Shown here piece by piece: positions 2,268 through 39,659 of a stretch of DNA of 39,659 bases (its first letter is position 1; every line of letters begins with the position of its first letter). Below the pieces are notes generated by a model. It was given only the letters and a program-made list of their open reading frames with translations. It was not told where the DNA came from and did not search any database. Origin of the DNA: Cyclobacteriaceae bacterium (lineage in GTDB: Bacteria > Bacteroidota > Bacteroidia > Cytophagales > Cyclobacteriaceae); contig PXCO01000106.1 in assembly GCA_003565295.1 (NCBI GenBank), positions 1 to 39,659 on the forward strand, read 5' to 3'. Both the position numbers and the translations under genes were made by a program.

Positions 2268-2699
2268 ATTTTAGTTTTTTTCAAGAATTAAATCCTCATT
2301 CTTCTATTATATGGACAGTGTTTTAAGCTACTAATCTCAAATGCTGGGGAACATTGGTTCGATATTTACAAAGAATGGCAATTATATATTTGCCCAGTCA
2401 AGACTTTCTGTTTTTTATGAAAGAAAAGCCCGACCATTAGGCTATTGTCATAACCTGAACAACGATTCCTATTATAACCTCCACTTGCGGGTATGCATTG
2501 GTTTTGGAATATTTTCGGTGAAATTTTTATAAGATAAAAACTATCAACAGGTTGCAGTACGATTAGTGATCATATTTCTATTTGAACGTTATATTTAGTC
2601 AGAATTGTCAACTAAAAGACATTTTGAAATCGGTTTTGGTGGTATAATTGGTAAATGATTCTTTTGGCTCAATTCAATAGGTGAAAAACGCCAATATGG
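2268..2699. other. Non-coding gap before the repeat block
   Basis: No credible gene is visible. The open frame at 2341-2532 lacks any recognisable motif. Near the right end, GCTCAATTC (about 2668-2676) and GAATTGAGC (about 2699-2707) form a 9-bp inverted repeat that leads into the repeat block. Confidence 0.45.
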
Positions 2700-2870
2700 A
2701 ATTGAGCATGACGAGATCCACACACCGAGGGGCGCCCCCCCCAATAGCTCCGGGGCTACCGGGGTTGCGAGATTCCCCCGAAGCAAGTTCCCCGAAGCGA
2801 GTTCGGGGCAGGCTATCCCGAAGATCGGGACAAGTTGTGGCAAATAAAAATCAATTATAAACACATGAAA
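2700..2870 (+). repeat. Dispersed hairpin-rich repeat, first (diverged) unit of tandem pair
   Basis: This unit contains the same blocks as the units at 2865, 14129 and 28439: GCATGACGAG, ACACAC, a GC-rich inverted block, TGCGAGATTCCCCCGAAGC, and a right end AATTATAAACACATGAAA. It also has the hairpins CCCCGAA-gcgag-TTCGGGG (about 2792-2810) and TCCCGA-aga-TCGGGA (about 2816-2830). It lacks the CCTGACGGCAGTCAGG head. Its terminal ATGAAA is shared with the start of the next unit. Confidence 0.8.
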
Positions 2871-3018
2871 TCGAGCCTGTCCTGACGGCAGTCAGGGCAT
2901 GACGAGAGCGACACACGGGGGGATGCCCCGATGGCTATCGGGGAGATGCGAGATTCCCCCGAAGCGAGTCCGGGGCAGGCTATATGACCAATAAAAAGAC
3001 AATTATAAACAGATGAAA
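2865..3018 (+). repeat. Dispersed hairpin-rich repeat, second unit; ends at a start codon
   Basis: This unit is bounded by ATGAAA at 2865-2870 and again at 3013-3018. Inside, in order, are GAGCCTGTCCTGAC, the palindrome CCTGACGGCAGTCAGG, GCATGACGAG, ACACACGGGG, the hairpin CCCCGAT-ggct-ATCGGGG, GCGAGATTCC, a CCCCCGAAGC...CCGGGG inverted block, and the A-rich tail GACAATTATAAACAG. The right ATGAAA is the first two codons of the GT2-like gene. The same architecture precedes genes at 14134 (minus strand) and 28560. Confidence 0.88.
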
Positions 3019-7238: not shown

Positions 7239-9713
7239 TTATTCTGCTTTCCCCATTTCCAACATTTCAGGAGCACCAATAACCTGGAAGGTATGGGTAG
7301 CATGCAAAGGTCTACCTTCACTGCTTACCCCTTCCAAAACCACCTTGTAATCCCCAACGGCATCGGAGGTGTAAAAGGTGATACGGGCTTTGCCCTCATT
7401 GGTCACCATCATATGGGGATTCCAATAAACGGTGGACCGCAGGTCAGGCAAGTCATAATAGTCGGAATCTGGTGATTCATACTTCGGGGCATAAAAACTC
7501 CTTGTTTTCGTATATCCGGTCGCCCTGTGGGTCACCAGGTGCTTTCCGGGTTCCGGTTCCTCCTGCAAGGACGCTCCCCTTTCCGTAAATAGGGCAATGA
7601 CACCACCAGCTCCCCTACCCCCGTAAATACCCACGGTTCCAGGGCTCTTAAGAATCTCTATCCTGGCAATATCAAATTGGTTGAGACTTGACACTGTTCT
7701 TTCGTCTATGGGCATTCCGTCAAGAAGGTAAAGAGGTGTGCCTTGTCCCCGAATTATTGCCCTAAATTCATTGAATCCCGTTTGTGTGACCTGAAGTCCG
7801 GCCACCCTGCCTTGCAGGGCCTCCATAATATTGCCCGAGGGAGCTACGGGGAGTTGACGGCGCTCCAGGGTAACATCGGCACGTTTATGCAGCCTAAAAG
7901 GCTCGTGGATCTCTGCCCTTCCTTCTACTACCACCTCTTCCAGGAGTATCTCACCTAACTCCATGGCCCCCACATCTGCGTCAAATGGTTGGGTATACTG
8001 TTGACCGGGCAGCGCATACCCATCAGGTACCGTCTTGCCAAAAGATGGCGCTAGGCCAACTTTGGGAATGCCCTGGTAGGGAAAATAGTCGCGATAGTCC
8101 ATGTGAACTTCCACATTGTGTGTTCTACCTCTGGCGTCAGTTCCCTGAACCATCACATCTATGCTATCTTTAAAATAAAATCCCCTAAACCTAAACCTTC
8201 CCTCTTCATCCACAGGTGTGGTGATGAAAGTTTGAAACCTATCCTTCAAATACAGTAGTGCCTCCCCTTCTTCTACCGGTTGTCCGTTTGCCTTTTTCAA
8301 CGCTCCCCATATATTTAGGTCATATTCGTTGGGATATTGGATTTCCGGTAACTTCTGGGCGGCTATGGCCTCCCACTGAAACTTGCTCCATCCCTGGCTC
8401 ATCATCAAATTCCTAAGGGCCACTTGCCGCTCCATTTCCCTGTTTTCAAAATAATAGGCGGGTTGCTCAATGTGGCCTTTCAAATCCGCACTCATCAACA
8501 AATACGTCATTATATTCTCTTCGTGAGGACTTCTTCCCACCCACTCATCTGCTGTGATGGCCACGGAAAACCTGAAATCTTCATCCTCGGCCTTATCCAG
8601 TTCCACGTCCAGGGTCACTTTTTCCCTGGTTTCGTATTTAGGCTTATCAGCATTAACCTTTAAGGCGTCTTGACCTTCATTTTGGATAAAGACCAATCGT
8701 TCAGCCAATGGCTCCCCTTCCAAGGTACCCAGGTTGATTCTAAGGATACCCGTGGGCAAATTGGCTTTTTCTATTGTGATGGATGCAGGCTCTCCGTCCT
8801 GAACCTGAATTTCTTTTCCCTCAACTAAATCGTCCTGGGCAATTGCAGTTACCAACAAGTTGTTGACCTGATCCTGGCCAGAATGAATGCTAATGTGTAA
8901 ATTCTCAGGGTCCTGAAGTTCGTCCCCCTTCAAGACATACCCTGCATCCAAAACCCTGGGAAGGGGATAATCCACTGTTTTACCATCCTGGAAGTTCACC
9001 TTTGCAAAGTACTGCTTGCCTTTATCCGGAGTGAGCTCAAATGCCCCCATGCCCAAATGATGGTCCTTGAATTCGGTTACCTTAACACCATTTTCATCGA
9101 ATATACCGCCTTCTATGTTCACACCATAACCATCATTTCCCAAGGCCTTAAAGGCCACTGTGGATGTGATTCCCTGCACCAAATCCCCACCTTCAGGGAA
9201 AAATTGCAAGTCTATCTCTGCTTCACGGCTTTCCTCTGAATCCTTGAAATGACTTTTCTCTTCCATTACCAAAATTTCCTTTTGGAAATAATTTTCCTCG
9301 CCAAAATTTCTCATCCAATTGGTGAATGCCGAAATCCTGTAAACCCCGGGTGACAAATCCTCCGGCAACAAGAAATCCCCCACTGCCTCCCCATCCATGA
9401 TGGGGAGGGTAAGGCTTTCCACCACTCCCCCCGCATCATTCATCAAGTCCACATAGAGCACCCCACTTTTCTGGGTAGGTTGAAGATTGCTCCCGCCCAC
9501 AACATAGCCCTTAAGCCAGATCATCTCCCCACGCAGGTAATGAGGTTTGTCGTGGTGCAAATAAACTTTTTCCGGGGAAAGGTTCACCCGGTATGCATTT
9601 AAGGTCACCCTAATCTTGTCCGTAAGGTCATCGCCAAAAGGAACCCATCCCAGCACCCCGATCAGCGGAAGTGCCCAAATAAGGTGTATATATTTATTCA
9701 TCAACTTTTTCAT
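7239..9713 (-). CDS. Plug-only TonB-type protein with MG2-like domains
   Basis: This is an 824-residue secreted protein with an N-terminal signal segment (IHLIWALPLIGVLGWVPFG). Residues about 45-150 (KVYLHHDKPHYLRGEMIWLK and PGVYRISAFTNWMRNF) look like an alpha-2-macroglobulin MG2-type module, with further beta domains up to about 590. At about 620-715 is a SusC-style plug domain: ALQGRVAGLQV, IIRGQGTPLYLLDGMP, IARIEILKSPGTVGIYGGRG. It ends with a short macroglobulin-like tail (STVYWNPHMMVTNEGKARIT). There is no 22-strand barrel, so it cannot be a TonB transporter by itself. Such proteins are common in Bacteroidota, usually annotated as plug-domain or carboxypeptidase-like proteins, and their role is unknown. 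It is divergent from the lipoprotein gene at 9864 and has its own terminator. Confidence 0.85.
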   Translation of the reverse strand: MKKLMNKYIHLIWALPLIGVLGWVPFGDDLTDKIRVTLNAYRVNLSPEKVYLHHDKPHYLRGEMIWLKGYVVGGSNLQPTQKSGVLYVDLMNDAGGVVESLTLPIMDGEAVGDFLLPEDLSPGVYRISAFTNWMRNFGEENYFQKEILVMEEKSHFKDSEESREAEIDLQFFPEGGDLVQGITSTVAFKALGNDGYGVNIEGGIFDENGVKVTEFKDHHLGMGAFELTPDKGKQYFAKVNFQDGKTVDYPLPRVLDAGYVLKGDELQDPENLHISIHSGQDQVNNLLVTAIAQDDLVEGKEIQVQDGEPASITIEKANLPTGILRINLGTLEGEPLAERLVFIQNEGQDALKVNADKPKYETREKVTLDVELDKAEDEDFRFSVAITADEWVGRSPHEENIMTYLLMSADLKGHIEQPAYYFENREMERQVALRNLMMSQGWSKFQWEAIAAQKLPEIQYPNEYDLNIWGALKKANGQPVEEGEALLYLKDRFQTFITTPVDEEGRFRFRGFYFKDSIDVMVQGTDARGRTHNVEVHMDYRDYFPYQGIPKVGLAPSFGKTVPDGYALPGQQYTQPFDADVGAMELGEILLEEVVVEGRAEIHEPFRLHKRADVTLERRQLPVAPSGNIMEALQGRVAGLQVTQTGFNEFRAIIRGQGTPLYLLDGMPIDERTVSSLNQFDIARIEILKSPGTVGIYGGRGAGGVIALFTERGASLQEEPEPGKHLVTHRATGYTKTRSFYAPKYESPDSDYYDLPDLRSTVYWNPHMMVTNEGKARITFYTSDAVGDYKVVLEGVSSEGRPLHATHTFQVIGAPEMLEMGKAE

Positions 9714-12115: not shown

Positions 12116-14134
12116 TTAAGGGTTTACAAACTCAAATTTTACAGCATCTGCAATTACATATTTATCCAGTTCACCATGAATGGTCAAGGCATGCTGAAAC
12201 CCAGACTCAAATGGATGTTCCCCTATTTCTACCCAATCACCTCCATTGATTTGTTGATTAACATAAGTGTTTAAATTTCCATTGGCATGATGAATAGTGA
12301 TAGGAACCTCGGATGCAAATTCCCTTGAAGAGGGAAACCAAATGGAAACCTTGTAGGTTCCTGGTTTGAAAAAATAGGGTTGAAAGTAAAACTCTCCATC
12401 CTTTCCTTTGGGATTGTATCGAAAATTCATTTCAAATCGACCCATGCTCAATGTTTCATTTTCGTACCAATCACCAATAAAGGAAGTAAAGCCCTTCATG
12501 TTGTTGTCTATAATTATCGTATGCTCATCATTCCAAATACCATAGGGATTGTTTTTTAAAGAAATGACCTGGTTTTGGGAGACAAGTTTCTTTTGGAGTT
12601 CGTGAATATCAACTTTTTGAATGGCTCTTTCAGATTTCACCGCCATTGCGGCAGCTAAGCCCGCCGATTGTCCTAAAATCATATATTGGGGTTCCATTCT
12701 GATAGAAGAAATGGCGAGATGAGAACCTGAAATGCAAACTGGAACCAAAAGGTTCGTGCATTCTTCAAATTTTGGAACAATCGAACGGAAGGGTATTTCA
12801 TATTGGGCAACAGGAATGGATAAATAACCTTCATTGTAAACCTCAGGTTTCATGTCGGGAAACCTGCTTATTTCAATGTAATTTCTCTGCATTTCTCTAA
12901 CATCGATATTGTAAGAACCCATCCCTATGGCATCATATTTAACTGTGTCAGTTAAAAGGTCATGTTCTGTCATAATGTATTCTCCTTTCATCCTTCTTGC
13001 AACCCTCACGTATAATTGATGAGGGAAATGCCCGTTATCCACATATTCGTCCTTACAAAGGCCGAAGTTTTTCATTTCATTTCGAACATGAAGTGGGACA
13101 GATTGATCATTTGCCAGAAAGTAGGCCAGGCCCAATGTATAGTCCTCATGCCACTGCCAAATGCTGTCTCTTTTTTCATAATCGGCCTCAGGATATTCCC
13201 AACTTGACCCATCTAATAAGTTTGTGGAAATTCCAACAGAGGAATTTATATCTGATTTACCATTTGGCAGTGTGGGCCAAAATGTAATTAACGGGCCCGC
13301 CTCAGGCTTTGCATGGTAATATCGTTTAACTAATTCAAATTGATCAGGGCTATAGTTTTCAGGTTTTGGCCATTCAATCATATTTTCAGGTTCATTGGTA
13401 GCAATAAGTCTAAAACAATAAGATTGAATCCCTTTGTCGGCTTCTCCAATTTCCACCATTGGCTTGGGATGGATCAGGGGAAGGAGTGTTTTCTTTTTTT
13501 CGTCCAAAAATGGGTTAAGACGGGCATCAATCTGATGACTCGTGAATGTAATTGGCTGCCGTCCTGCCCAGTTTTCATTATATTCGCTTTTACCTTCCCT
13601 CCCGTAGGTATAAGAAACACCCGCTCTTGCCATCAAATCCCCCTCGTAACCGGCATCGATGAAAATTTCGCCTTCTGCACGGGTGCCGTCGGTAAAAACC
13701 AAAGATTTTATCCTTCCGTCCTCATTAATTACCTGTTCTATTCTCCTGTTATAAATGACGTCTACATTCGACTCCTCCAGCCAATCTTTCATTATCTTTT
13801 CACCAATATGAGGCTCAGGACCCCTCCAAAAAAATATGTGGGTATTATAGTGATCTGCAACTTTTTTATACAAATCTACTGCCAAGCCCCCTATCACCGT
13901 CCTATCACCATAATCTGTATGAGACAGTCCCCCGGTAACCATTCCTCCAACATGCTTCCTGGGTTCAACAAGCAACACCTTCATGCCTTCATTGGCAGCA
14001 GCGACCGATGCCGTAACCCCACTTGCAGTAGCCCCATATACCACAACATCGTAAGGTTGATGTATTTCTTGAGCTATTGATGTTATTATTGTGAGTAAAT
14101 AACTGAATAGTAAAAATAAAATTCTCATTTTCAT
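12116..14134 (-). CDS. Secreted FAD-dependent oxidoreductase with golvesin-like C-terminal domain
   Basis: This is a 672-residue protein with a signal peptide (LFLLFSYLLTIITSIAQ). The FAD-binding Rossmann fold of the FAD_oxidored type follows at once: YDVVVYGATASGVTASVAAA, then VEPRKHVGGMVTGGLSHTDYG. Further flavin segments are IDAGYEGDLMARAGVSYTYG and SSIRMEPQYMILGQSAGLAA. The last 120 residues (FFKPGTYKVSIWFPSSREFA, QQINGGDWVEIGEH, YVIADAVKFEF) match the golvesin/xanthan-lyase-associated beta-sandwich, likely a carbohydrate-binding or adhesion module. Proteins of this layout occur in polysaccharide-use loci, and the upstream neighbour is a heparinase-type lyase. The start codon is the ATGAAA at the right end of the repeat at 14129-14265. 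Substrate unknown. Confidence 0.87.
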   Translation of the reverse strand: MKMRILFLLFSYLLTIITSIAQEIHQPYDVVVYGATASGVTASVAAANEGMKVLLVEPRKHVGGMVTGGLSHTDYGDRTVIGGLAVDLYKKVADHYNTHIFFWRGPEPHIGEKIMKDWLEESNVDVIYNRRIEQVINEDGRIKSLVFTDGTRAEGEIFIDAGYEGDLMARAGVSYTYGREGKSEYNENWAGRQPITFTSHQIDARLNPFLDEKKKTLLPLIHPKPMVEIGEADKGIQSYCFRLIATNEPENMIEWPKPENYSPDQFELVKRYYHAKPEAGPLITFWPTLPNGKSDINSSVGISTNLLDGSSWEYPEADYEKRDSIWQWHEDYTLGLAYFLANDQSVPLHVRNEMKNFGLCKDEYVDNGHFPHQLYVRVARRMKGEYIMTEHDLLTDTVKYDAIGMGSYNIDVREMQRNYIEISRFPDMKPEVYNEGYLSIPVAQYEIPFRSIVPKFEECTNLLVPVCISGSHLAISSIRMEPQYMILGQSAGLAAAMAVKSERAIQKVDIHELQKKLVSQNQVISLKNNPYGIWNDEHTIIIDNNMKGFTSFIGDWYENETLSMGRFEMNFRYNPKGKDGEFYFQPYFFKPGTYKVSIWFPSSREFASEVPITIHHANGNLNTYVNQQINGGDWVEIGEHPFESGFQHALTIHGELDKYVIADAVKFEFVNP

Positions 14135-14265
14135 GTGTTTATAATTGTTTTCCAGCGGTCATAACTTGCCCCGGTTTATCGGGGTGGAATCTCGCTTTGA
14201 TAATCATCCTTCCGTGTGAGGTTTTCCTCATGCCCTGACTGCCGTCAGGACAGGCTCGATTTCAT
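14129..14265 (-). repeat. Dispersed hairpin-rich repeat, full unit; ends at a start codon
   Basis: Read on the minus strand, this unit starts with ATGAAATCGAGCCTG (14265 downward), carries the palindrome CCTGACGGCAGTCAGG, GCATGAGG, CACACGG, AAGCGAGATTCC, a CCCCGAT...CGGGGC block, and the tail CAATTATAAACAC, and ends with ATGAAA at 14134-14129. That last ATGAAA is the start of the FAD oxidoreductase gene. Confidence 0.88.
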
Positions 14266-14325
14266 GTGTTTATAATTGATTTTCAATGGTCATAACTTGT
14301 CCCAAACCGAAGGTCTGAAACCCCC
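14266..14325 (-). repeat. Partial repeat unit abutting the full unit
   Basis: On the minus strand this reads GGGACAAGTTATGACCATTG followed by AAAATCAATTATAAACAC and then joins the ATGAAA of the full unit at 14265. It is the right end of another unit. Together the two units fill nearly the whole gap between the heparinase-type gene stop (14331) and the FAD oxidoreductase start. Confidence 0.75.
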
Positions 14326-25595: not shown

Positions 25596-26951
25596 TTAGA
25601 TGATTTCAAAATATCGTTTCCTCTCCCAATCGGTAACTGAAGCATGGAATTCCCTGCATTCCCATTCCCTGGTTTTACAGAAATGATCGACAAAAACTTC
25701 CCCAAACAACTCCCTGGAAATCTCCGATTTTTTCATTTGTGCGGTTGCCTCCTCCAAATTACCTGGTAGAGAGCCGTTACTAAAATCCTTGTACCCGTTT
25801 CCTACCGTGGCAGGTTGTTCCAGTCTCAATTTGTTTTGAATTCCGTAAAGGCCTGAGGCCAAACAAGCCGCCATTGCAAGATAAGGGTTAACATCCGAAC
25901 CCACTACCCTGGTTTCCAGCCGTGTGGAATTTTCTCTGCCTTTCAGCACACGAAGGGCAGTAGTCCGATTATCATAAGCCCATGTAAGAGTGGTGGGCGC
26001 CCAGGCCCCCTCCACAAGGCGTTTGTAACTGTTGATGGTCGGTGCCACCATAGGCAAGATATAGGGAAGGCAATGCAACTGGCCCGCCATATATTGCTTC
26101 ATAAGCTCTGAGATAGATTGATCTTTCTCATAAAAGAGATTTTTTTTACCATCTGGGCTCCAAAGGCTTTGATGCACATGCCCCCCGTTACCAGGTAAAT
26201 GATCCGACCACTTGGCCATAAAGGTGGCCATAATGGCGTGACGGTAAGCAATCTCCTTCACACAGGTCTTAAACAAGGTAGCCCTGTCTGCAGCCGCTAG
26301 AATATCCCCATACTTAATAGCCGCCTCATATACACCGGGTCCTGTTTCAGTATGCAACCCCTCCAAGGGAACCCCAAATTGATGGCATAAGTCAAAAAGG
26401 TCATTAAAAAAAGGTGATTTCAGAGAAGAACGCAAGATCGAGTACCCAAACATCCCGGGAGTCATGGGTTTGGAATGACCCGGCTCCTCCTTATGGAACC
26501 TGTCTGGGGTGGTCTCAAAATTAAACCATTCAAATTCTTGAGCAAACCTTGGCAGCAGACCCTGATCCTTTGCCTTTTTTCTAATTCGCTTTAGCAGGCT
26601 TCTGGGGCAGACCTCCAGCCCTTTCCCTTCGGCATCACTGAAATCTGCAAGGAAAAAAGGCAAGCCATTTTCCCATGGGATATTTCTAAGCGTGCCATGA
26701 TCCACCCTGGCATCAAAATCGGGATATCCGGTATGCCAGCCGGTCACATCTACGTTATCGTATGATTTATCCTCCATGTCCCATCCAAATACCACAGCAC
26801 AAAACCCCATGCCTCCTTCCAGAATGGTGAGAAACTTGTCCTGTGACACCACCTTTCCACGGAGTACCCCGTCTATGTCGACTACGGCAAGTTTTACCTT
26901 ATGGTAATCATTGTTCTGTAAGTAGGCTTTGATCTCAACTTTACTTTTCAT
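25596..26951 (-). CDS. Glutamine-synthetase-like gamma-glutamyl-amine ligase
   Basis: This 451-residue protein is a class I-type glutamine synthetase homologue: N-terminal beta-grasp (VKLAVVDIDGVLRGKVVS), then the catalytic domain with the metal ligands in GLHTETGPGVYEAAI and NGGHVHQSLW, the NSYKRLVEGAWAP loop, YDNRTTALRV and the C-terminal LETRVVGSDVNPYLAMA. It deviates from true GS around GPGQ (here GPGV) and HMH (here GHVH), as gamma-glutamylamide ligases such as PuuA do. Its ATG lies inside the end of the ethanolamine-type permease gene (11-base overlap). The likely reaction is ATP-dependent coupling of glutamate to an imported amine, perhaps ethanolamine as reported for Streptomyces GlnA4 (inference). 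Confidence 0.82.
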   Translation of the reverse strand: MKSKVEIKAYLQNNDYHKVKLAVVDIDGVLRGKVVSQDKFLTILEGGMGFCAVVFGWDMEDKSYDNVDVTGWHTGYPDFDARVDHGTLRNIPWENGLPFFLADFSDAEGKGLEVCPRSLLKRIRKKAKDQGLLPRFAQEFEWFNFETTPDRFHKEEPGHSKPMTPGMFGYSILRSSLKSPFFNDLFDLCHQFGVPLEGLHTETGPGVYEAAIKYGDILAAADRATLFKTCVKEIAYRHAIMATFMAKWSDHLPGNGGHVHQSLWSPDGKKNLFYEKDQSISELMKQYMAGQLHCLPYILPMVAPTINSYKRLVEGAWAPTTLTWAYDNRTTALRVLKGRENSTRLETRVVGSDVNPYLAMAACLASGLYGIQNKLRLEQPATVGNGYKDFSNGSLPGNLEEATAQMKKSEISRELFGEVFVDHFCKTREWECREFHASVTDWERKRYFEII

Positions 26952-28287: not shown

Positions 28288-28438
28288 AGAGGTTGATGTT
28301 AGTGGTTCTTTGCAAGTGTGGTCTTAGGGTTGGTTTATAAAAGCATGCTTTAAATATATCAAAGAAAAGGTAAAATCACATCATTCCTTTGGCAAGTTTC
28401 CAACTGTGAAGCCTACATTTGTAAAAAATGACAGACCA

Positions 28439-28565
28439 ATGAAATCGAGCCTGTCCTGACGGCAGTCAGGGCATGACGAGCACGCCACACACTGGGATGC
28501 CCCGATAGCTACGGGGCGTTGCGAGATTCCATCTGACCATAAAAAGACAATTTAAACAGATGAAA
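28439..28565 (+). repeat. Dispersed hairpin-rich repeat, single unit; ends at a start codon
   Basis: This unit is bounded by ATGAAA at 28439-28444 and at 28560-28565. It contains GAGCCTGTCC, the palindrome CCTGACGGCAGTCAGG, GCATGACGAG, CCACACAC, the hairpin block GATGCCCCGATAGCTACGGG followed by GC, TTGCGAGATTCC, ATCTGACCATAAAAAG and the tail ACAATTTAAACAG. It is slightly shorter than the unit at 2865-3018, lacking the CCCCGAAGC block. The right-hand ATGAAA begins the 3-hydroxyacyl-CoA dehydrogenase gene. Confidence 0.88.
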
Positions 28566-29552: not shown

Positions 29553-29606
29553 GGAAGGTCTTTCCCGAACAGGTTGGAAAACCTTCCGAGGTCCAAAAAA
29601 GACCTC
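29553..29606. terminator. Inverted repeats in a convergent gap, possible terminator
   Basis: GGAAGGT (29553-29559) pairs with ACCTTCC (29581-29587), with a smaller AGGTT/AACCT stem nested inside, and GAGGTC/GACCTC (29588-29606) forms a second hairpin. They lie between two convergent genes. No clear T-tract follows on either strand, so termination is only likely. Confidence 0.4.
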
Positions 29607-29624
29607 AAAGGTTATATGGGACTG

Positions 29625-32399
29625 TCATAATGGTTTAATCCGGATATTCCTGAACTTCATCACATACTCCTGCCCGTCTTCCATGCCATGTGCTTGCAAG
29701 CCAATAAAACCTTTGGAATGGGTTTCATACACCTCTTCCAAAACCAAATCTTCCACCTCCTGGCCATTTACCCAGGATCGTATCCTGGGCCCCTCGGCAA
29801 GGATCCGCATATGGTTCCAGCCTTCGTCATGAAGGTAATGATGTCCGTTTTGGATCTTCTCTTCCGAAGACAACCACCCGGTGCCTAGAGCCTCCCCGTA
29901 GATTAACCCGGTGGTGGGGGTTCCGGGCTTGTGGTTCCGCTGCATTTCCACCTGGGGGCCATATACCCTGCCCGCCCGGTTATGATGGCCTTCCCCATGC
30001 GTGAGCGGCTTCGCCTTGGAACGTATTTGTATGCCGGAGTTGCTCACACTGTCGATCATCACCTCCAGCTCCATCTCAAAATCCCCAAACTCCTCCTTGG
30101 TGCATAAAAAGCTGTTTTCACTGTTTTGTACCGTACGGGCCACAATTGCCCCGTCTTCCACCCTGAATCTGTGCGAACCGTTCAGGTGTACCCAACCATC
30201 CAGGCTTTTTCCGTCAAATAGGGATTTCCATTCCCCCTTTTCGGAGCTAGAATGATCCGCTTCATCGGGAAGGGCAAAGGCCACAATGGAATCCCCGTAG
30301 GGAGTGGCATTTTTACCTCCTCCCCCTGCGGCAATGACGATATATTGCTTTCCATCAATCATATATACTGAGGGGGTGGCATACCCGGCCGCAGGCAGCT
30401 TGTATTCCCACAACAGTTCCCCATTATGGCTGCTAAAGGCACGAATCATCTCATCCGGGGTCCCTGAAATAAAGACAATCCCGCCAGACGTGGTGACAGG
30501 CCCACCAAAATTCTTGGCTCCCGTCCCGGTAATCCCCTTGGCTGCCAATTCAGGATATTCCCCCAAAGGCACCTTCCACAGGATTTCTCCCTCCGCAAGG
30601 TCCACGGCATTTAAGGTACCCCAAGGTGGGGAAATGGCCGGTGCACCGTGGGAGTCCGTGAAAAAGGGGTTGGACACCGAATACCTTCGTATGCCATTGC
30701 CACTTTTAGTTTGAACCTCACTGCTGTCTGCCTGTAAAAAGGCTACCAGGTCATTTACTTCCCTCCAGGTCAGCTGCTGAAAAGCGGGCATAATCCCCTT
30801 CCCTGTGGCCAATAACTCCCGGATTTCTGCTTCCTCCATGGACACTTCCTTTAATGCCGGATAAGTGGGTGGATTTCCTTCCCTATCTGCTCCATGACAG
30901 GAGGTACAGTTCTTTTGGTACACCAAGGCACCTTTGGCCAAAGGCCCTTCCTCCTCTTCCCCATCAGTATCATAAAAAAGATGCAAAGTATTGATGGAAG
31001 GGGCCTCATTGGCATTGATATAGACGACATTGAGATAGGGATTATACGTCCCCCCACCCCACTCCACTCCCCCTTGATGGCTGGGAGTGGTGATGATTCC
31101 GGCCGTAGAAGGAGGGGTATAGAGAAAGCCTGACTCATACTTTCGGAAGGTTTCCAATACTTCCTTGTGCGTATCAGGGGTGATCTGTGACAAGTCTGCC
31201 TCATGCATGGAAAGCCTGACCAAGGGCGGAGGCCTTAAGGGAAAGGGTTGGGTGGGCCAGGCTTCCTCTCCCGGCACGGTAGAGGCCGGAACGGGCATTT
31301 CCACCACGGGAAAAACGGGCTCCCCGGATTCACGGTCCAGCACAAAAGTCAATCCCATTTTGGTAAACTGCACCACTACATCCCGCTTTTCTCCCTTATT
31401 ATTGATTGTGAGCAACATGGGTGCTGGAGGGTTATCATAATCCCAAATATCATGGTGTACGGTTTGGTAGTGCCAAATTCTTTCCCCTGTTCGAGCGTTC
31501 AATGCCACCACACAATTCCCAAACAGGTTCATTCCCTTTCTGAACCCCCCGTAATAGTCATTAGCCGGAGATCCGGTGGCAAAAAACACCCAGCCTCTCT
31601 CCTCGTCCAAAGAAAAGCCACCCCAGGGATTTGCACCTCCGTAACGCTCTCCCTCTACCCATTCCCAAGTGTCATAACCATATTCCCCTTCATGGGGAAT
31701 GGTATGGAAAATCCATCGAAACTCCCCGGTGACCGCATCAAAAGCGCGTATATCGCCTGGAGTGGAATTGTATTCCTCCGGCACCCTACTGGTGACGATC
31801 AGGAAATCCTCGAAAACGATCCCTGGAGTAGTCACTTCTATGGAGGCGGTTTCAGACTCCACAGGCAGGTGTTTTCTTAAATCTATGGAGCCGTTTTCAC
31901 CAAAACTTTCTATCAATCGACCTGTACCTGCATCCAGGGCAAAGACCCTGTTGTTCACAAAGTGAAATATCCTTTTTCCGGCCTCCCCTTCCCAATAGGT
32001 CACGCCCCTGTTTCTTCCCCTGAACACCTTTTGGTTGTCATTATAAGGGGTGGGGTCAAACACCCATGCCTCTTCCCCAGTTTTGGCATTAATGGCCACC
32101 GCATCAAGCTTTGGGGTGGTAAAATACAGCAACCCATCGATCATAATGGGGTTGGAATACATGGAAGGGCCATTGGGGTCCCCTGTTTGGTATTCCCAGG
32201 CTTTTTCTAATCTATGCACATTCCCGGCATGGACCTGTGCCATTTCCGAAAACTGGGTGGCTTTTTTATCCCCCCTGTAGATGGCCCAGTCGGTGAAGTT
32301 GTCGTAGGGGTCTACTTTGTGGGAAGGTTGCTCTTCCTTTTGAACAGGTCCACAGGCGATGGAGATCAAAAAAACTAAAGGCAGGTAATATTGCTTCAT
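29625..32399 (-). CDS. Lipoprotein fusion: PQQ dehydrogenase, cytochrome c, DUF1080 (3-keto-glycoside hydrolase-type)
   Basis: This 924-residue protein has a lipoprotein signal (LPLVFLISIACGP, cysteine 16). Residues about 35-485 and 570-710 form a quinoprotein beta-propeller, with SPANDYYGG, VHHDIWDYDNPPAPMLL and repeated W-type motifs (GEEAWVFDP, GELLWEYKLP). A class I cytochrome c is inserted at about 488-560: CTSCH at 498-502 binds haem and Met537 in GKGIMPAFQ is the likely axial ligand. Residues about 722-924 are a DUF1080/PF06439 domain (EWKSLFDGKSLDGWVHLNGS, SNSGIQIRSK, YGPQVEMQRN, WNHMRILAEGPRI). PQQ enzymes oxidise sugars or alcohols and pass electrons to cytochrome c; DUF1080 proteins have been reported to hydrolyse 3-keto-glycosides. 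It is transcribed alone. Confidence 0.9.
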   Translation of the reverse strand: MKQYYLPLVFLISIACGPVQKEEQPSHKVDPYDNFTDWAIYRGDKKATQFSEMAQVHAGNVHRLEKAWEYQTGDPNGPSMYSNPIMIDGLLYFTTPKLDAVAINAKTGEEAWVFDPTPYNDNQKVFRGRNRGVTYWEGEAGKRIFHFVNNRVFALDAGTGRLIESFGENGSIDLRKHLPVESETASIEVTTPGIVFEDFLIVTSRVPEEYNSTPGDIRAFDAVTGEFRWIFHTIPHEGEYGYDTWEWVEGERYGGANPWGGFSLDEERGWVFFATGSPANDYYGGFRKGMNLFGNCVVALNARTGERIWHYQTVHHDIWDYDNPPAPMLLTINNKGEKRDVVVQFTKMGLTFVLDRESGEPVFPVVEMPVPASTVPGEEAWPTQPFPLRPPPLVRLSMHEADLSQITPDTHKEVLETFRKYESGFLYTPPSTAGIITTPSHQGGVEWGGGTYNPYLNVVYINANEAPSINTLHLFYDTDGEEEEGPLAKGALVYQKNCTSCHGADREGNPPTYPALKEVSMEEAEIRELLATGKGIMPAFQQLTWREVNDLVAFLQADSSEVQTKSGNGIRRYSVSNPFFTDSHGAPAISPPWGTLNAVDLAEGEILWKVPLGEYPELAAKGITGTGAKNFGGPVTTSGGIVFISGTPDEMIRAFSSHNGELLWEYKLPAAGYATPSVYMIDGKQYIVIAAGGGGKNATPYGDSIVAFALPDEADHSSSEKGEWKSLFDGKSLDGWVHLNGSHRFRVEDGAIVARTVQNSENSFLCTKEEFGDFEMELEVMIDSVSNSGIQIRSKAKPLTHGEGHHNRAGRVYGPQVEMQRNHKPGTPTTGLIYGEALGTGWLSSEEKIQNGHHYLHDEGWNHMRILAEGPRIRSWVNGQEVEDLVLEEVYETHSKGFIGLQAHGMEDGQEYVMKFRNIRIKPL

Positions 32400-32593
32400 G
32401 GTGCGATTAAATTGGGTCAGCCGGAAAAGTAAAAAAAATCCCTGAAAGCTCCCAGCAATTTAGGAATGGAGGAGATTGTAAAGTAGAAGCGGGGATTTTC
32501 ACAAGTAAGCGATGTACCAATATAAAGTCTACCCAAAACCAATAATTCTATTATTTTGTAGCATTTTGGTCTTTTCCAACGTAATGACTGATA

Positions 32594-33928
32594 ATGATTA
32601 AATCTCTACTTCAGAACATAAACTCCATGAATTCCATTTATTTTCTCATTATTTTCTGTGTAGTGTTTTGGAGCTGTGAAAAGCAATGGGACGACCCCAT
32701 CCCCGAGGGAGCTGAACTGGGTACGCCAAGGTTAATCGCAGAACTTACCGAAGAAGGGGAAGTCATGCTAAAATGGAACTTTTCAATGCTATGTGCTGGC
32801 TGGATGTGCCCCCACACGGTGGAGGGAAGCAGGTACGAGGTATATGCGTTGATGCCAGGAAGCGAGGAGTGGGTGAGAATAGCCCAATTGAGTGCAGATG
32901 ACAAGTCGTTTCTATTTCATGAATTGGAATTTGGTGAAATTTATGAATTTAACGTCAAGGCATTTAGGGCTGGCCATATGACCACCTCCAATCAGGTCAT
33001 GGTTTCCCCTAACAAAATCCCAGAGTATGAAGTTTTGATGGAACTGGGCGATTGGGATCCCATAATCCACCCCAAAGTTAACCCTGGCGGGAACAAGGTG
33101 GTATATATTACCAACCATCGTTGGAGCGTAGGCACCCAAAACTATATGACATTAAGCCTATTCTTACACGATTTTGGATCGGATCAATCCGAATTGATAA
33201 AGTTAAATTGCTACCACCCACAATGGTCTAGGGATGGGCGAAAAGTTATTTACGGCACCACTGAAGGACTTCAGCAAAGTGAGCAGGGACATCCCCCCTC
33301 TCAATTGGAAACTTATGATGTGGATAACAAAACCATTGAAGTGGTGAGGAAGGGATTTTACCAACAACTTTTTCCAAGATTCGACAAGGAGGATAACCGT
33401 GTAATATATCTTTCAGACTCCTTGAAAAGAGGGGAAATGGGCTTGTGGCGTACAGAAATAAGTGGCAACACCGAGGTAATCTGGCCCTCATTCCCTTTTC
33501 CAGCACATGGAGCTGGCTTGTCCTTGGTTACAGGTTTGGATGTTTCAGGGTTTAAGGATTTGGTGGTTTTGGATATCGTAGGTACTGTAGAAAACAGGAC
33601 TGTATATAATATCCATGCGGTGGAGTTTGGGGAAAGCATTCATAAAAAGGAAATAGTGGCAAGCCGTTGGAATGATAGGGCACCTGCTTTTTCTCCCTTT
33701 GATGATAAGCACCTAGCCTTTATATCGGATAGGTCGGGTGCCAATCAGGTCTGGACCTTGGACCTTTCCAATGGTAATCTCAAACAGGTCTCGTTCTTTC
33801 AGGACGAAATACGTATTAGTACCTCCGGTACAAGCCTAAGCTGGACCGATCAGGGACAAGCGCTAGTTGTGCCAATCTCTACAATGGGCGGGGTCCAACA
33901 GCTTGTTAAACTTCCTGTGGCAAGTTGA
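32594..33928 (+). CDS. TolB-like lipoprotein with Fn3-type and PD40 propeller domains
   Basis: This 444-residue protein ends its signal at FLIIFCVVFWSCEKQ, so it should be lipidated. A second ATG twelve codons in is possible, but the first keeps the lysine needed in front of the hydrophobic stretch. Residues about 40-140 (PRLIAELTEEGEVMLKWNFS to IYEFNVKAFRAGHMTTSNQV) look like a fibronectin type III domain with an unusual CAGWMC insertion. The rest is a WD40-like/PD40 propeller: HPKVNPGGNKVVYITN, HPQWSRDGRKVIYGTT, FPRFDKEDNRVIYLSD, APAFSPFDDKHLAFISDRSG. It lies about 300 bases before the GGT-like gene on the same strand. A role in binding or scaffolding is probable; none is proven. Confidence 0.8.
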   Translation: MIKSLLQNINSMNSIYFLIIFCVVFWSCEKQWDDPIPEGAELGTPRLIAELTEEGEVMLKWNFSMLCAGWMCPHTVEGSRYEVYALMPGSEEWVRIAQLSADDKSFLFHELEFGEIYEFNVKAFRAGHMTTSNQVMVSPNKIPEYEVLMELGDWDPIIHPKVNPGGNKVVYITNHRWSVGTQNYMTLSLFLHDFGSDQSELIKLNCYHPQWSRDGRKVIYGTTEGLQQSEQGHPPSQLETYDVDNKTIEVVRKGFYQQLFPRFDKEDNRVIYLSDSLKRGEMGLWRTEISGNTEVIWPSFPFPAHGAGLSLVTGLDVSGFKDLVVLDIVGTVENRTVYNIHAVEFGESIHKKEIVASRWNDRAPAFSPFDDKHLAFISDRSGANQVWTLDLSNGNLKQVSFFQDEIRISTSGTSLSWTDQGQALVVPISTMGGVQQLVKLPVAS

Positions 33929-39277: not shown

Positions 39278-39659
39278 ATGAAGCCATTCTGTCTCTTATT
39301 TATCATTTCCCTTCCCCTTTGTTTTTACACAAAGGCCCAAACACCCTCTACCCACTCCATCTATGCCGAACTGGGCGGGGCGGGCTTGGCCTATTCCTTT
39401 AATTATGATTTTAGGTTTGACAAGGAGGACCTTCAATCCTGGGGTATGCGCATCGGTGCCGGTGGTTGGGCCAGAAACGACACCTATAACAAGGAGGCCC
39501 TTCTTTCCCTTCCCGTGCAGATCAACAGGCTTTGGGGCAAAGGCCCTCATTATTTTGAGCTGGGGGCAGGTGGCACTTTCTTGTATTATAGGGACAGAAA
39601 CATCTGGCAAGACGATGTGTTTATCCGGAGAAACTTCCACTTTATCCTGGACTCCGGAC
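39278..39659 (+). CDS. Putative outer-membrane protein (5' part only)
   Basis: The frame opens at the ATG at 39278 and runs off the window after 127 codons. It begins with a signal peptide (FCLLFIISLPLCFYTKAQ). The visible mature part, with HSIYAELGGAGLAYSFNYDF, GMRIGAGGWARN, LLSLPVQINRLWGKGPHYF and ELGAGGTFLYYRDRN, has alternating aromatic and polar strands and glycine-rich turns typical of small 8- to 10-stranded outer-membrane beta-barrels of Bacteroidota. No function is known for such proteins. The strand pattern and signal are clear; the rest is out of view. Confidence 0.78.
   Translation, partial: MKPFCLLFIISLPLCFYTKAQTPSTHSIYAELGGAGLAYSFNYDFRFDKEDLQSWGMRIGAGGWARNDTYNKEALLSLPVQINRLWGKGPHYFELGAGGTFLYYRDRNIWQDDVFIRRNFHFILDSG

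Follow-up and report, generated by a model that had tools for sequence, protein, structure and literature searches.

A small dispersed repeat of Cyclobacteriaceae that supplies start codons and is probably a mobile element inserting between ATG and AAA

Why should copies of one dispersed repeat end exactly where genes begin? In a 39,659-nucleotide stretch of a Cyclobacteriaceae genome (the window), a preliminary description had placed three such units at 2865-3018 (+), 14129-14265 (-) and 28439-28565 (+), and a reading of the window sequence found all three at these places, each opening with ATGAAATCGAGCCTG, containing CCTGACGGCAGTCAGG and GCGAGATTCC, and closing with an A-rich tail and ATGAAA. 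At all three the terminal ATGAAA is the start of an ORF (180, 672 and 296 aa). Pfam agreed with the names given to two of these genes, recognizing the 672-aa ORF (start 14134) as an FAD oxidoreductase (FAD_oxidored PF12831, E 8e-105) and the 296-aa ORF (start 28560) as a hydroxyacyl-CoA dehydrogenase (3HCDH, PF02737/PF00725). The GT2-like label of the 180-aa ORF (start 3013) was not supported, as Pfam gave it no GT2 domain and its sole match, RCK, fell below the cut-off. The palindrome CCTGACGGCAGTCAGG occurs at three exact places in the window and, at up to three mismatches, gives six matches on both strands compared with 0.08 expected; Rfam returned 0 matches at gathering score within the window. 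The first site is a two-unit array with its left ATG at 2696 and an older head, ATGGAATTGAGC, and the second retains an older tail remnant (Table 1).

Table 1. Units, modules and related start codons in the window; G001 is a congener of the source genome.
Position	Strand	Feature	Basis
2699..2867	+	Older degenerate unit of the two-unit array, head GAATTGAGCATGACGAG; left ATG 2696-2698	Sequence
2868..3015	+	Unit AAATCGAGCCTG...AAACAGATG; last ATG 3013-3015 opens the 180-aa ORF	Sequence, ORF calls
2881..2896	+	Palindrome CCTGACGGCAGTCAGG, extra hairpin module close to the left end of the unit	Pattern search
9711..9713	-	Start codon of an 824-aa ORF; empty in the window, occupied in G001 (C33:25822)	
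14132..14262	-	Unit; the 672-aa FAD oxidoreductase gene starts at its terminal ATG, 14134-14132; left ATG 14265-14263	
14234..14249	-	Palindrome module	Pattern search
14266..14320	-	Remnant of an older unit, consisting of the tail only and located upstream of the unit at 14132..14262; left limit approximate	Sequence
28414..28421	+	TACATTTG, promoter-like -7 motif, kept upstream of the insertion	Sequence
28439..28441	+	Left ATG, interpreted as the former start codon	Empty allele at G001:C33:42640
28442..28562	+	Unit inserted where the 3-hydroxyacyl-CoA dehydrogenase gene starts; the gene now begins at the last ATG of the unit, 28560-28562	
28455..28470	+	Palindrome module	Pattern search
28530..28535	+	CATCTG, 5' arm, can pair with CAGATG	Covariation; fold
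28557..28562	+	CAGATG, 3' arm, includes the start codon	Covariation; fold
32594..32596	+	Start codon of a 444-aa ORF; empty in the window, occupied in G001 (C33:47974)	

Across the source genome (5.62 Mb, 403 contigs), CCTGACGGCAGTCAGG has 136 exact copies, the head ATGAAATCGAGC has 209 and the tail has 258 matches at up to two mismatches, with 0 matches for the reversed-pattern control of each. A 25-base head-tail junction matched in 61 stretches of named genomes that, judged by their titles, come from the same family or order: Lunatibacter, Cyclobacterium, Algoriphagus, Lunatimonas and Pleomorphovibrio, all of which we take to be Cyclobacteriaceae, together with a Cyclobacteriaceae MAG and a Cytophagales MAG. 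At up to one mismatch, the tail was present in 41 of 98 genomes, reaching 235 copies in the source genome, 271 in the congener G001, 160 in G034 and 108 in G019, fewer in G067 (56), G022 (26) and G017 (16), and mostly 1-9 in the remainder; the reversed tail gave 1-2 matches in several of the 98 genomes, so that single matches may be chance. Of 118 family genomes, 21 have the core GCGAGATTCCATSTGRCC at up to one mismatch. As is usual for repeats, some copies fall at contig ends, but several assemblies agree. These data support a dispersed repeat with marks of mobility. A sister subfamily, with a ATGAAATGCCCATGAG-like head variant and the same kind of tail, was seen at L022, L047, L220, L267, L276, L279 and L283.

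An 82-row alignment (A1), from which 3 of 85 short units were left out, consists mostly of units of 88-92 nt. These carry, in order, ATGAAATCGAGC, a hairpin TGACG-loop-CGTCA, GATGATTAT, TGCGAGATTCCATNTGACC and an A-rich CAATTATAAACAN'ATGAAA; longer units have extra palindromes added. Units are joined head to tail, with one ATGAAA common to both neighbours. Within A1, the left hairpin (TGACG/CGTCA) shows compensatory changes, with 88.3% of cells paired, and the right side of the unit has the guide-end helix only. By inspection of the alignment, the ends AAATCGAGC and AAACANATG do not form terminal inverted repeats, and in the 82-row short-unit alignment the conserved hairpin foot is GAGCATGACG, with no GT[AG]G. 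When folded as single-stranded DNA, two palindrome-bearing units of the window did better than shuffles (z -3.0 and -2.5), and two short units did not (z -1.0 and -0.5). Unit numbers also change: between flanks that are 96% identical, Pleomorphovibrio marinus (L139) has two units and the source genome one, a difference due either to recombination between units or to a new insertion. At L254, a site occupied in both the source genome and G001, the left junction is the same and the unit contents differ. About 2.4 kb including the unit (L216/L139) are 96% identical between the source genome and P. marinus, compared with 78-80% at three other loci that they share.

How often do the units end at genes? 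For most counts, flank-sequence duplicates and copies cut by contig ends were dropped. Terminal right ends opened an ORF of at least 60 aa in 56 of 103 cases in the source genome and 46 of 64 in named genomes; a stricter tail, with the next six bases left free, gave 36/64, 32/39 and, for G001, 7/12. In a 480-kb stretch of G001, picked for its synteny with the window and then extended onwards, 13 of 26 arrays (27 rows, 283218 being a double row) end at the start of an ORF of at least 100 aa. In G128, which belongs to a more distant genus and from which 20 of 21 sites were fetched, 17 of 20 frames are open to the end of the fetched stretch, roughly at least 85 codons, and the target peptides, read by eye, include a malate/lactate dehydrogenase and a sugar nucleotidyltransferase. 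In these sets, copies are thus not mostly far from starts, and the start-codon link drawn from the three window units is supported as well beyond chance.

Because about half of the copies in the source genome and the congener stretch open no gene, the target looks like ATGAAA and not like genes. Among ATGAAA sites of the G001 stretch, 10 of 46 at ORF starts were occupied, as were 10 of 102 at other intergenic places and 0 of 486 inside genes. This count sets aside 29 sites inside elements, in 6 of the 26 arrays the right end does not read ATGAAA, and the ORF calls behind it are crude, an element end inside an ORF frame being taken as the start and other ORFs being given their first ATG. An ATGAAA target, combined with loss of intragenic insertions, explains most of the residence at starts; an extra preference for starts, beyond motif and loss, is suggestive only.

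Orthologous sites without the unit had been expected to keep a single ATGAAA. All six that we compared have a single start codon and no unit, and so agree with insertion; exact ATGAAA is present in two of the six, the empty starts in these diverged congener pairings being ATGGAA, ATGAAA, ATGAAT, ATGAAA, ATGAGA and ATGAGA. The pairs are window 28439 (filled) with G001 C33:42640 (empty); G001 25822 and 47974 (filled) with window 9713 and 32594 (empty); G001 111185 and 110359 (both filled) with source-genome C184 (empty); and G001 103271 (filled) with source-genome C190 (empty). They come from 5 of the 26 G001 arrays and 1 of 52 gene-type sites of the source genome; a G001 stretch near 108700 aligned but was uninterpretable, and matches in other genera were left uncounted. 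Each filled allele consists of the left flank, ATG (once ACG), one or more units and a second ATG. The 60-base leaders before the start aligned better than shuffles in four of the six pairs: none of 500 shuffles reached the score at each of 28439, 110359 and 111185, and 2 of 500 did so at 25822, where the leader of the empty allele has 9 extra nucleotides adjoining the start. The leaders of 47974 (167/500) and 103271 (213/500) aligned no better than shuffles.

These pairs bear on the reading that the unit is an intergenic REP-like repeat which ends in ATGAAA by chance and multiplies through recombination, its link to starts being a by-product. Such a repeat would account for the half or so of source-genome copies that lie away from starts and for arrays that gain or lose units between near-identical flanks, and the two uninformative leader comparisons leave it some room. 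With filled and empty alleles at start codons, and with 17 of 20 copies at ORF starts in G128, we nevertheless regard it as very improbable.

The preliminary description had the unit sitting between two direct copies of ATGAAA, as if it had inserted at, or duplicated, gene starts. Insertion at starts is supported by the six empty sites; direct duplication is not, as the two ends vary in different halves. At left ends (n=107) the ATG part was changed in 29 and the AAA part in 7, compared with 2 and 10, respectively, at right ends (n=115; Fisher p=1.4e-4, for six bases that the search match left free). The loci were partly found with ATGAAA in the pattern, which favours intact ends and neither half over the other. 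Terminal ends were paired up with their left ends for 89 of 103 in the source genome and 62 of 64 in the others; in those left out, the left head was missing or the next unit was a TGCCCATGAG variant. Since the left AAA and the right ATG are near-constant, we place the insertion point between the ATG and the AAA. Part of this asymmetry could come from drift of a left ATG no longer in use, together with selection for the right one, but the constancy of the left AAA would then be unexplained. The same ends allow a classical mobile repeat to be weighed, in which a staggered cut would have made a 6-bp ATGAAA target-site duplication outside the element. Most copies do have ATGAAA at both ends, and the empty sites do have one start codon. 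However, one listed case only has a variant common to both ends (G001 10349, ATTAAA), the variants otherwise sit in different halves, and the two ends do not form inverted repeats; we consider such a duplication unlikely. A GTG ancestral start for pth, considered for the left end GTGAAA at L028, was not supported, as the 11 relatives whose start was located by the motif have ATGAAA (7), ATGAAG (3) or ATGAGA (1); the motif missed 2 of 13 relative loci, L352 (in G001) and L362.

A1 further indicates that CATNTG pairs with CAN'ATG, the arm bearing the start codon. The variable pair is GC in 34 rows, CG in 34, AT in 8, CC in 3, GG in 2 and GT in 1; it is changed on both sides in 43 of 82 rows, and 97.1% of the helix cells are paired. 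For the whole structure, 93.1% of cells are paired compared with 7.4-52.4% in slid controls, for a structure that was read from the alignment by eye and then counted, and was thus chosen on the same data that test it; relatedness among rows is still present in the covariation shuffles. RNAalifold alone gave 7 pairs and zero covariation. Among 51 pairs of units whose bodies are at most two positions apart, 13 differ at the variable base, 6 by full switches between standard pairs and 7 involving a mismatch. Of 87 terminal ends that have CATNTG, 83 carry a complementary variable base, and CATNTG is missing from 59 of 96 terminal ends of the source genome and from two of the three window units.

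At the left end, ATGAAATC can pair with GATTCCAT, through A1 columns that are near-invariant and little informative. G128, the one set outside A1 read for left-end pairing, has AAACC/GGTTC in place of AAATC/GATTC in 12 of 12 copies with the head in view. Its heads are ATGAAACC or ACGAAACC in all 12, in copies that were picked by the GCGAGGTTCC side only, the core GCGAGATTCCATSTGRCC side being the sole criterion. This matching two-sided change is possibly a single event. The CATNTG base pairs in 15 of 20 G128 copies. Judged by pairing alone, one CAT would face both the left ATG and the right CANATG.

Is this hairpin there for the gene or for the element? In the source genome, CATNTG pairing was found at 22 of 56 gene ends versus 14 of 40 non-gene ends, and in other named genomes at 37 of 46 versus 10 of 17. 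Because the hairpin is kept no better at genes than elsewhere in the source genome, a role in mobility is favoured. The alternative is a host-beneficial translation leader or RNA switch, with the hairpin or an upstream ORF regulating translation so that copies are kept. A start codon within a covarying hairpin arm is in line with this, as is the finding that units with an open upstream frame seldom have a length that would join this frame to that of the gene: their length is 0 mod 3 in 6 of 89, compared with 60 of 152 units with an early stop, and 1 or 2 mod 3 in 83 of 89 versus 92 of 152, in counts uncorrected for shared ancestry. About equal pairing at gene and non-gene ends in the source genome, target genes that look unrelated, and the 97 of 118 family genomes that have no core motif at up to one mismatch make such a leader or switch quite unlikely. 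An upstream ORF encoding a conserved peptide was rejected, as 152 of 241 units have an early stop.

What, then, happens to the gene? At 28439 the insertion lengthened the leader and kept the promoter-like motif, the TACATTTG type of which is also present at the empty G001 allele; TAnnTTTG is the -7 promoter consensus of Bacteroidota. The old start now opens a short upstream ORF, and an A-rich stretch precedes the new start. Bacteroidota use A-rich leaders in place of a Shine-Dalgarno sequence, and the A-rich tail may serve as such a translation leader. For units of length 1 or 2 mod 3 with an intact tail, the upstream frame ends at a TAA before, or a TGA overlapping, the new ATG.

We observed the copy number, starts with and without the unit, asymmetric ends and covariation, and think it probable that they reflect a small non-autonomous mobile element of single-strand type, with a core unit of 88-92 nt, that inserts between ATG and AAA. 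It would be an element of some Cyclobacteriaceae genomes, its core lengthened by extra palindromes, and would insert in one orientation between the ATG and AAA of ATGAAA. The element itself would be AAATCGAGC...CANATG, giving ATG+AAA at both ends after insertion, with the old start codon remaining on the left and the last three bases of the element forming the new start. Every junction would be a fresh target and would thereby give rise to head-to-tail arrays. An internal CAT (GATTCCATNTG) is predicted to base-pair both with the ATG on the left (ATGAAATC/GATTCCAT) and with CANATG on the right, and starts would be the usual residence, with ATGAAA frequent as a gene start and intragenic insertions lost.

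Pairing of CAT with both ends resembles recognition in IS200/IS605, from which we infer a single-strand mechanism acting in trans. In the guide mechanism of that type, end and target are recognized through pairing (PMC6006769), and re-targeting of IS608 is treated in PMC5934647. On this model, the exact cut, single-strand transposition, an enzyme supplied in trans, and tolerance by way of a rebuilt start and an A-rich tail would go together. More tentatively, and with somewhat less than even confidence, the element may home to start codons, with CAT as an anti-start guide, entry between codons 1 and 2, and its own start and A-rich leader brought along; its mover may be an enzyme as yet unlinked to such elements. 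If so, the most essential position of a gene would become a safe site.

Which enzyme could move the unit? A Y1_Tnp search of the source genome gave two genes, one broken and the other intact and set within a different repeat, CAACCCGCTTCGGGGTTG; the unit brackets neither. The intact Y1 transposase lies at about 750-2500 of L292, ringed by that other repeat family CAACCCGCTTCGGGGTTG. None of 30 Y1 loci from 15 other genomes was bracketed by the unit (0/32 with the source-genome loci), and a Y1 transposase as linked mover was not supported at these scanned loci. The nearest approach is L334, with a unit roughly 1 kb away, and at five more loci the motif gave one or two weak matches; genomes that carry the element and genomes that lack it both contain Y1 genes. 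An autonomous longer copy was likewise not found, as the scanned loci contained five head-tail pairs of 580-3480 bp, none convincing. No RAYT gene flanked by unit copies was found among the scanned loci. A RAYT-like gene of G001 (C33:452475-453032, L348), with NHFH and YLHQNP, lies between repeats GAAAACCTTCGAGGTC and forms with them a separate repeat system; it has zero source-genome matches at E 0.001 and resembles subclass 2.6 in a table of PMC6006769. As no mover was found, the comparison with IS200/IS605 denotes a possible mechanism and not membership.

Like IS200/IS605 elements such as IS608, the unit would insert beside a short fixed sequence, and has a subterminal hairpin at its left end and a predicted internal guide that pairs with end and target, and would do without target duplication, as end asymmetry and empty sites suggest. 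Unlike them, it has a start codon as its fixed sequence, a single CAT may act at either end, there is no linked TnpA, the core is about 90 nt and the right helix consists of the guide and the end themselves. With REP/REPIN sequences (TnpA-REP, RAYT) it shares short palindromic repeats, hundreds of copies, mosaic arrays and a patchy distribution among relatives; it differs in that the short-unit alignment shows no GT[AG]G at the hairpin foot and the scanned loci no unit-bracketed RAYT, and in sitting at start codons and carrying one. CGTC-tagged palindromic repeats are reported from Bacteroidetes (PMC3733652), and the left hairpin of the unit has a CGTC(A) arm; a search of the text of PMC3733652 gave neither 'start codon' nor 'ATG'. 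The unit is short, non-autonomous and present in many copies, like bacterial MITEs, but has no terminal inverted repeats, and target duplication is unsupported, although a decayed duplication would look alike. HEARO/IscB elements sit beside ATGA or GTGA, so that there too a start-codon-like sequence adjoins the left end; unlike them, the unit has no ORF or large RNA. Among the matches listed from the open-licence PMC literature, none describes a start-codon element.

Insertion at a start codon should normally cost the cell the gene, and an element that aims at the start and rebuilds it would be a distinct solution. It also offers a testable case of target choice through base pairing, and an annotation hazard, as a spurious short upstream ORF begins at the former start. 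Elsewhere in the window, 1027-1068 holds a strong hairpin 3' of the first ORF, formed by a perfect 20-bp inverted repeat around a 2-base loop. The stretches 29573-32473 and 39335-39659 are 94% and 97% identical to G001, compared with about 71-81% for other syntenic matches, which reflects either recent transfer or strong conservation.
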